Below are positions 29,961 to 32,360 of a stretch of 64,000 nucleotides of DNA, piece after piece. Both the position numbers and the translations under genes were made by a program. Within the stretch, counting starts at the first letter, position 1. Each line of letters begins with the position of its first letter. The notes under the pieces are model-generated. The model had not been told where the DNA came from, did no database searches, and was given only the letters and a program-made list of their open reading frames with translations. Origin of the DNA: an uncultured SAR86 cluster bacterium (GTDB lineage: Bacteria; Pseudomonadota; Gammaproteobacteria; Magnimaribacterales; D2472); NCBI GenBank assembly GCA_902557645.1, contig CACEAP010000001.1, positions 186,001-250,000 on the forward strand. The letters run 5' to 3'.

Positions 29961-30584
29961 ATGACTATAAAGATATACAGCTGTGATGGTTCAAGAGGTA
30001 TGCGACCTATATGGACTGCAGAAGAAATGGGGCTAAACTATGAAGTAGAAATGATGCCTTTTCCTCCTCGTTTTTTACATAAAGAGTTTATGGATATAAA
30101 TATTTTAGGAACTATTCCTTATATGATTGATGGCGATGTCCGTATGACAGAGTCAGTTGGAATGAGTCAGTATTTTGTTGAAAAATATGGCCCAACAGAT
30201 CTTAAGGTAAATATCGATGAGCCTGATTATGGTAATTATTTAAATTGGCTTGCTCATTCGGATGCTACGTTAACTTTCCCTCAAACAGTTGTGCTTAGAT
30301 ATACATTACAAGAGGTAGGAGTTGCTGATAAGGCTGCAGAAGGTTATAGACGTTGGTTTGTTGCTAGATTAAAATTACTTGAACAAACTCTAAATGACAG
30401 AGAGTATCTTTGCTCTGATAGATTCACAATAGCTGATATTTGTGTTAGTTATGCTTTGTTTCTTGCAAAATCTCTAGGAATTGATGAAGCTTTTAAGCCT
30501 AATATAACCCGTTGGACCAGCATGCTTTTTGAAAGAGATGCATTTAAAAAAGCTAAAAGTTACAAGTGGGAAGGGAATGTATAG
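29961..30584 (+). CDS. Glutathione S-transferase family protein
   Basis: A 207-residue cytosolic GST. The thioredoxin-like N-domain (about 1-80) has SCDGSRGMRPIWTAEEMGLNYEV, the cis-Pro segment LGTIPYMIDGD and the glutathione-contacting TESVGMSQYF; the helical C-domain contains ADICVSYALFLA, the N-capping box motif. Glutathione conjugation or reduction is inferred; the substrate is unknown. It is divergent from the carboxylase operon and shares its regulatory region. The last eight bases overlap the start of the Msr fusion gene. Confidence 0.88.
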   Translation: MTIKIYSCDGSRGMRPIWTAEEMGLNYEVEMMPFPPRFLHKEFMDINILGTIPYMIDGDVRMTESVGMSQYFVEKYGPTDLKVNIDEPDYGNYLNWLAHSDATLTFPQTVVLRYTLQEVGVADKAAEGYRRWFVARLKLLEQTLNDREYLCSDRFTIADICVSYALFLAKSLGIDEAFKPNITRWTSMLFERDAFKKAKSYKWEGNV

Positions 30585-31857
30585 TTTGAATATAATTTTT
30601 AAATATACTTTTTTAATTTCTTGTTTATTCTTAGGGACTTCATATACTTACGCCTCTGATCAACTTAATAGCACAAATCATATTCAATCTATTGTTCTTG
30701 GATCTGGATGTTTTTGGGGAGCTGAAAAAGGTTATGAAGCAATACCAGGAGTTATTGATGCTGTATCAGGGTATGCAGACGGTAGAGGTATTAAACCCAC
30801 TTATAGAGATATAACACAATTAAGAAATAGACTTAATCCAAATAACTATGCTGAGGTTGTTAAAGTTACTTTTAACTCTCAAGTGTTAAGTTTAGAAAGT
30901 TTATTAAAACATTATTTTGAAAGTCATGACCCAACTCAACTTAATAGGCAAGGAAATGACATTGGCACACAATATAGATCAACGATTCTTTATTCAGACA
31001 AGAATCAAAAGGAAACAATCCAAGCTACAAAATTAAAATTTCAAGAATTACTTACTAGTGCTGATTATGGTCAAATTGTAACCATAGTTAAAATGCTTGA
31101 GAAATTTTATGTCGCAGAGGATTATCATCAAGATTATATTGCTAAAAATCCTAATGGTTACTGTCCGGATCACTCCACAGGCATCAAATTTAGTCCAAAT
31201 AATCAAATTGCAAAATTAGATAATGCTTTGATTCAACAAGGAAAACAAATTGTTGTAATAGAACCGCAAGGCTTTTGTCCATATTGTGAAAAATTTAAGG
31301 AAGATGTTTCAAATAACTATAAAGGCACTATACCCATGTCTTTTCGATTAGCTTCTAATCTTGAGGGTTTAAATATAAAAACACCTACATGGGCTACTCC
31401 AACAATACTTTTTTTTGAAGATGGCGAAGAGGTTTTTGGATACCAAGGTTATCTAGAACCAAAAGAATTTTACAAAGTTTTAGGAGCATTTAAATTAGGA
31501 AGAAGTGAAGCTTACAATGTCGCTTTCAATGAAGGAACAGATGCAAGATTTTGTAAAGAGTATGAAATTTTTAAAAATACTCCAGATGGAGTTTTTGTAG
31601 ATAAATTAAGCGGAGCTCATTTGTTTGATACAAGAGATAGATTTAATTCAACATCAGGATGGCTATCATTCACTAGCCCAGTTGCAGGCTCTGTATATGA
31701 GCTTGAAGATAATAGCTATGGCATGAGAAGAACAGAGATTCGCTCTTCAAGCTCTGGGATACACCTCGGTCATGTTTTTGATGATGGACCAAATGGTATG
31801 CCAAGATATTGCATCAATGCCACTGTATTAGAATTTGTTCTCAGGAAAGATATTTAA
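30577..31857 (+). CDS. msrAB: Exported MsrA - thioredoxin-like - MsrB three-domain methionine sulfoxide reductase
   Basis: A 426-residue fusion with an N-terminal signal peptide (FLISCLFLGTSYTYA), so probably periplasmic. MsrA (about 36-200) has the catalytic GSGCFWGAE (Cys45) and YHQDY; a thioredoxin-like domain (about 210-305) carries CPYC at 234-237 and the cis-Pro WATPT; MsrB (about 315-424) has HLGHVFDDGP and RYCIN with Cys412. The usual MsrB zinc CxxC pairs are absent (DKLSGAHLF). It would repair both sulfoxide epimers, with its own disulfide exchange domain in place of a separate reductant. The ATG at 30577 is chosen over an upstream in-frame ATG within the GST gene, because it gives the signal peptide directly and follows GGGAAGGG. 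Confidence 0.88.
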   Translation: MYSLNIIFKYTFLISCLFLGTSYTYASDQLNSTNHIQSIVLGSGCFWGAEKGYEAIPGVIDAVSGYADGRGIKPTYRDITQLRNRLNPNNYAEVVKVTFNSQVLSLESLLKHYFESHDPTQLNRQGNDIGTQYRSTILYSDKNQKETIQATKLKFQELLTSADYGQIVTIVKMLEKFYVAEDYHQDYIAKNPNGYCPDHSTGIKFSPNNQIAKLDNALIQQGKQIVVIEPQGFCPYCEKFKEDVSNNYKGTIPMSFRLASNLEGLNIKTPTWATPTILFFEDGEEVFGYQGYLEPKEFYKVLGAFKLGRSEAYNVAFNEGTDARFCKEYEIFKNTPDGVFVDKLSGAHLFDTRDRFNSTSGWLSFTSPVAGSVYELEDNSYGMRRTEIRSSSSGIHLGHVFDDGPNGMPRYCINATVLEFVLRKDI

Positions 31858-31883: not shown

Positions 31884-32360
31884 ATGGATAAGCAGGATAA
31901 ATTTATAAAAGCTTTACGTAATTTAGCTTACCCTGTATGCATTGTTTCAAATGCAGAAGAGGGTGAAAGTAATGCTATTACTGTTTCCTCTATGACTTCT
32001 TTATCTATTGATCCAGCTTCTCTATTAGTTTGTATCAATAAATCTGCAAATATTCACAAAACATTAAAAGTAGATAATTTTGTATATGTAAACTTATTAA
32101 GCTCTTCGCAAGAAGAAATTTCTACAATTTGTAGCTCAAGTGATCTTGATGTTAGTAGATTTGATAATGATTTTTGGTCGTATGATGAAAATTTAATTCC
32201 TTTCTTAGAAGATTCTCAAGCAATAATTAAATGTAAGATAGAAAAAATTGTTGACTATGCAACCCATTCAATCTTAATACTTTCTATCTTTGATGTTAGA
32301 TTAAATAGTGAGAATCCTGACCCTTTACTATATTGCAATGGAAGTTATTCAAAACTTTAA
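31884..32360 (+). CDS. Flavin reductase-like (HpaC/NtaB type) protein
   Basis: A 158-residue FMN-binding split-barrel protein. FIKALRNLAYPVCIVSN, NAITVSSMTSLSIDPASLLVCINKSANIH (read as two adjacent segments) and FVYVNLLSSSQ are the standard conserved blocks; the C-terminal YCNGSYSKL matches the family's end. Such enzymes supply reduced flavin to a monooxygenase or act alone as flavin reductases. The nearby minus-strand nitronate monooxygenase-like gene is not a known partner. The start at the ATG following TATAAT was chosen; upstream in-frame codons lie inside the Msr gene and give no domain. Confidence 0.82.
   Translation: MDKQDKFIKALRNLAYPVCIVSNAEEGESNAITVSSMTSLSIDPASLLVCINKSANIHKTLKVDNFVYVNLLSSSQEEISTICSSSDLDVSRFDNDFWSYDENLIPFLEDSQAIIKCKIEKIVDYATHSILILSIFDVRLNSENPDPLLYCNGSYSKL

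Follow-up and report, generated by a model that had tools for sequence, protein, structure and literature searches.

The window analysed here is a 64,000-nucleotide stretch of DNA from an uncultured bacterium whose closest named relatives are SAR86 (source genome of 1.25 Mb in 17 contigs). It encodes an enzyme of 426 residues in which two methionine sulfoxide reductase domains flank a thioredoxin-like domain. The gene, its parts and its neighbours are as follows.

29961..30584, + strand: upstream glutathione-S-transferase-like gene, with an 8 bp overlap with the msr start (ATGTATAG)
30577..31857, + strand: MsrA-thioredoxin-MsrB fusion gene, 426 aa, ATG at 30577 and stop at 31855-31857
30577..30654, + strand: Sec-type signal peptide predicted from the sequence, residues ~1-26 (MYSLNIIFKYTFLISCLFLGTSYTYA)
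30691..31164, + strand: MsrA domain, residues 39-196 (PF01625, PMSR, E 8.1e-51)
30709-30711, + strand: MsrA catalytic Cys45, within GCFWG
31162-31164, + strand: MsrA resolving Cys196, within NGYC
31234..31482, + strand: thioredoxin-like domain, residues 220-302 (PF13098, Thioredoxin_2, E 2.4e-8, over the cut-off)
31276-31287, + strand: C234-P-Y-C237 of the thioredoxin-like domain, whose cis-Pro275 lies within WATPTILFF
31504..31839, + strand: MsrB domain without a zinc site, residues 310-421 (PF01641, SelR, E 1.1e-30)
31552-31554, + strand: probable MsrB resolving Cys326 (Cys in 80/98 fusions)
31810-31812, + strand: MsrB catalytic Cys412, within RYCIN
31884..32360, + strand: downstream flavin-reductase-like gene (PF01613, E 3e-32)

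The order MsrA-thioredoxin-MsrB proposed in the first-pass annotation was borne out by Pfam, which placed PMSR, Thioredoxin_2 and SelR in that succession, with profile scores of 172.7 bits against a cut-off of 23.7 for MsrA (PF01625) and 106.4 bits against 24.9 for MsrB (PF01641). The cysteines it had named, Cys45, Cys234/237 and Cys412, occupy those positions; the complete set comprises Cys16 (within the signal peptide), 45, 196, 234, 237, 326 and 412, and Cys196 and Cys326 were missing from the earlier list. Its description of an MsrB that keeps RYCIN and has lost the CxxC zinc pairs is also accurate. The two zinc pairs of zinc-type MsrB were found neither in the window MsrB nor in any member of our reference set of 98 aligned full-length fusion sequences (0/98), and STSGW replaces GCGWP in the window MsrB, so that the GCGWP-type resolving cysteine is absent. 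Both thioredoxin-fold features, the CxxC and the cis-Pro, are present in the middle domain; together with the Thioredoxin_2 match, they suggest that the CPYC domain is probably reducible, as had been supposed. The best PDB profile matches of this domain are weak (E ~1e-7), and Paracoccus 3dml/3d4t (E 1.2e-7) are among the top ones. These entries carry the PDB label "uncharacterized protein", and we take them to be SoxS, a periplasmic thioredoxin with a single domain that functions in sulfur oxidation.

An AlphaFold model of the whole protein (pLDDT 87.9, pTM 0.80) is confident except over residues 1-32, where pLDDT falls below 50; the PDB entries that it matches best are MsrAB fusions, besides single domains of either MsrA or MsrB. 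In the model about 20 residues separate MsrA from the thioredoxin domain, and thioredoxin helix 295-307 adjoins helix 311-318 at the start of MsrB. No NCBIfam model was found to span the full 426 residues; scores of the PilB-like and MsrB/A models fall short of their cut-offs, with PRK14018, which has the length of a thioredoxin-MsrA-MsrB protein, reaching 258.6 against a cut-off of 522.

The same domain order is found in all 98 aligned sequences and is therefore the product of neither chance nor misassembly. Full-length fusions are present in 72 of the 107 genomes of the window's own family (counted from search rows), one of which (G024) has two full-length copies on different contigs, and a rough count in another family, f55, gave ~40 of 63 genomes with a fusion-length frame holding both reductases. 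Named relatives with the fusion include Kangiella, Aliikangiella, Colwellia, Pseudoalteromonas, Rheinheimera and Psychrosphaera, and relatives at 41-45% identity occur in Lysobacter, Thiocapsa, Halochromatium, Nitrosomonas, Halothiobacillus and Thiomicrospira. Under even sampling, with the source genome included, matches to the middle domain came from 7 of 369 gammaproteobacterial genomes (~2%) and from 3 of 399 genomes of the phylum. The domain order had been thought unusual, a view that does not hold: it is widespread in Gammaproteobacteria and Betaproteobacteria, and an "MSRA-Trx-MSRB" order is in print for archaea (PMC6211008), the likeness to the window protein being one of published domain order. 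The first-pass annotation had also asked, by way of a domain-architecture search, whether the arrangement is already common, and the answer depends on scale: it is common in SAR86 and some other families, but occurs in only the ~2% of evenly sampled gammaproteobacterial genomes given above. The parts, their order and the zinc-less MsrB are already known. Viral spread was considered and set aside, since none of 13 viral-contig loci was shown to be a three-domain fusion; plasmid carriage was likewise rejected, as the plasmid proteins among the matches listed were MsrAB- or PilB-type at <47% identity, with no full fusion identified.

Export of the protein, also proposed earlier, is supported by the resemblance of its first 26 residues to a Sec signal, from which we infer a periplasmic location. 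A hydrophobic N-terminal stretch is present in 93 of the 98 fusions and separate MsrA paralogues are without one; one clade I protein (L129) seemingly lacks a signal yet keeps its CxxC. The motif LISC at residues 13-16 (window 30613-30624) matches a lipobox in its loose form, which makes a lipoprotein possible; a type I signal peptidase site (TYA/SD) also fits, and clear lipoboxes (LSAC, LQSC) are seen in several f55 relatives. The source genome additionally encodes a stand-alone MsrA, apparently cytosolic, and a separate zinc-type MsrB with the GCGWP cysteine, neither with an obvious signal peptide. DsbD_TM was found in this genome, where the DsbD-family gene sits at a contig end, and in 19 of 20 relatives, most of which have an open frame of ~650 residues or more; relatives that have no fusion possess DsbD as well. 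The glutathione-S-transferase-like gene neighbours the fusion in 23 of 97 loci and the flavin-reductase-like gene in only 3 of 97.

Among comparable characterized systems, Neisseria PilB likewise combines the three activities in one periplasmic protein with a zinc-less MsrB. For this reason the zinc-less MsrB, which had been singled out as noteworthy, is ordinary. The contrast in domain order drawn earlier is confirmed (thioredoxin-MsrA-MsrB in PilB; PMC6210582): the PilB thioredoxin domain is N-terminal and TlpA-type, whereas that of the window protein lies between the reductases and matches Thioredoxin_2, and PilB MsrB retains the GCGWP resolving cysteine that the window MsrB lacks. The MsrAB fusions of Streptococcus, Helicobacter and Treponema (3e0m, 7e43, 5fa9), in which MsrA precedes a zinc-less MsrB, are the best structural matches, but they have no thioredoxin domain and no cysteine in the Cys326 column. 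In Xanthomonas campestris MsrB (3hci/3hcj) the resolving cysteine follows the first helices, within the N-terminal part of the protein (PMC7475093), and can be likened to Cys326 by its N-terminal location, the equivalence of the columns being unproven.

Cysteine usage divides the reference set into clade I (n=80, window included) and clade II (n=18). Cys45, 196, 234, 237 and 412 are present in 98/98 sequences, and C234, C237 and P275 are invariant in a 74-sequence alignment. Cys326 occurs in all of clade I (80/98), and the MsrB of clade II (18/98) has Cys412 only, so that it would need an outside thiol. The GCGWP position is Ser or Thr in every one of the 98 fusions; loss of this cysteine was rejected as a special trait, because most sampled non-fusion gammaproteobacterial MsrB proteins are without it too. 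In both the MsrA-domain and the MsrB-domain trees, each clade falls on one side of a branch and the two sit side by side, few other rows being interspersed, a pattern that fits a single fusion event. Two zinc-less non-fusion MsrB proteins (L151 and L140, from a Nitrosomonas genome and a viral contig) group beside the fusion MsrB domains. No cysteine was found in the Cys326 column of any non-fusion MsrB row sampled, and Cys326 is likely the resolving cysteine of the window MsrB.

A sublineage of family f55 offers a natural variant of this arrangement. In three genomes of one genus (L224-L226) the protein is without a signal, CxxC or cis-Pro, and its MsrB has gained exactly one cysteine, in the Cys326 column (TERPFCGPY). 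Pfam found no thioredoxin domain in P0002, the sole member of this sublineage tested. An MsrA-X-MsrB protein without export signal, with a decayed middle domain (neither CxxC nor cis-Pro) and an MsrB cysteine in the Cys326 column is encoded at L223:652-1812, as at L224-L226. In the 22 listed f55 relatives that column holds Thr or Ser, and the CxxC is retained together with an apparent signal or a lipobox. A single new cysteine would land there by chance in about 1 in 110 cases (a rough figure for ~110 MsrB positions), and the swap counts as one evolutionary event, not three. This pattern suggests that the CxxC matters where the protein is exported and its MsrB lacks a resolving cysteine, and that a cysteine in the Cys326 column may replace it. 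Neither the cysteine distribution nor the swap was found in the open-access papers searched, which is weak evidence of absence.

We consider it reasonably likely that the window protein is a periplasmic methionine sulfoxide reductase with a built-in reductant, and its domains and invariant cysteines are those of what is probably a self-reducing enzyme. MsrA would reduce Met-S-O at Cys45 and then form a Cys45-Cys196 disulfide, and MsrB would reduce Met-R-O at Cys412 and then form a Cys412-Cys326 disulfide. Cys234/Cys237 of the middle domain would reduce both disulfides and would themselves receive electrons at the membrane, with DsbD, the donor for PilB, as the most likely source. As the window protein has both the CxxC and Cys326, the proposed MsrB path would run from Cys412 to Cys326, to the CxxC and on to DsbD; in clade II the CxxC would act directly on the Cys412 sulfenic acid or mixed disulfide.

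The fused thioredoxin domain of PilB reduces MsrB intramolecularly and MsrA only between molecules (PMC6210582), so service to both reductases is not to be assumed here. The middle domain might reduce MsrB only, with MsrA reduced by other molecules or by a separate periplasmic thioredoxin; the precedent of PilB and the model, in which MsrB is nearer to the thioredoxin domain with almost no linker, are in keeping with such a division. We regard it as unlikely; three proteins (L101, L103, L126) that stop after the thioredoxin domain keep the CxxC and cis-Pro, which suggests use to MsrA. No MsrB was found downstream of these genes by tblastn; a 21-residue MsrB match (E 0.04) in L101 lies on the upstream side of the gene. 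The set consists of three genomes only, at least two of them MAGs, and leaves out L102, which is cut by a contig end. The thioredoxin domain would thus appear to be retained for MsrA too, and the reading in which it plausibly serves both reductases gains comparative support.

A further alternative, to which we also give a low probability, is that Cys326 is not redox-active and the window MsrB is a 1-Cys enzyme reduced directly by the CxxC; it is a variant of the self-reducing model, and the confidences in the two overlap. Clade II works without a second MsrB cysteine, but the invariance of Cys326 in clade I, its absence from the sampled non-fusion MsrB rows and the independent gain of a cysteine in the same column when the CxxC was lost argue for a redox role. 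It is highly improbable that the middle domain acts as a disulfide isomerase/oxidase or a substrate-docking module and not as the Msr reductant: CPYC is also a glutaredoxin/Dsb-type motif and the matches to solved thioredoxin-fold proteins are weak (best E ~1e-7), but the CxxC and export signal were lost exactly where MsrB gained its cysteine, and the invariance of CxxC and cis-Pro in 74 aligned sequences would be needless for a docking module.

Tentatively, and with rather less confidence than in the self-reducing enzyme itself, we suggest that the built-in thioredoxin is traded against an MsrB resolving cysteine and that the central domain is shared intramolecularly by both stereospecific sites, unlike in PilB. 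The built-in CxxC would permit an MsrB with only the catalytic cysteine, as in clade II; where export and the CxxC are lost, a new resolving cysteine would be selected for. Periplasmic electron supply to MsrA and MsrB, beyond cytosolic thioredoxin, has been worked out mainly for PilB. This fusion family provides natural variants (1-Cys MsrB, MsrB with Cys326, MsrA-thioredoxin alone, and a lost CxxC), with which the question of the domain served by the built-in thioredoxin can be addressed. Our search of the open-access literature found no paper naming SAR86 and methionine sulfoxide reductase together; the fusion family indicates that SAR86, a group of surface-ocean bacteria with small genomes, invests in methionine repair in the cell envelope.
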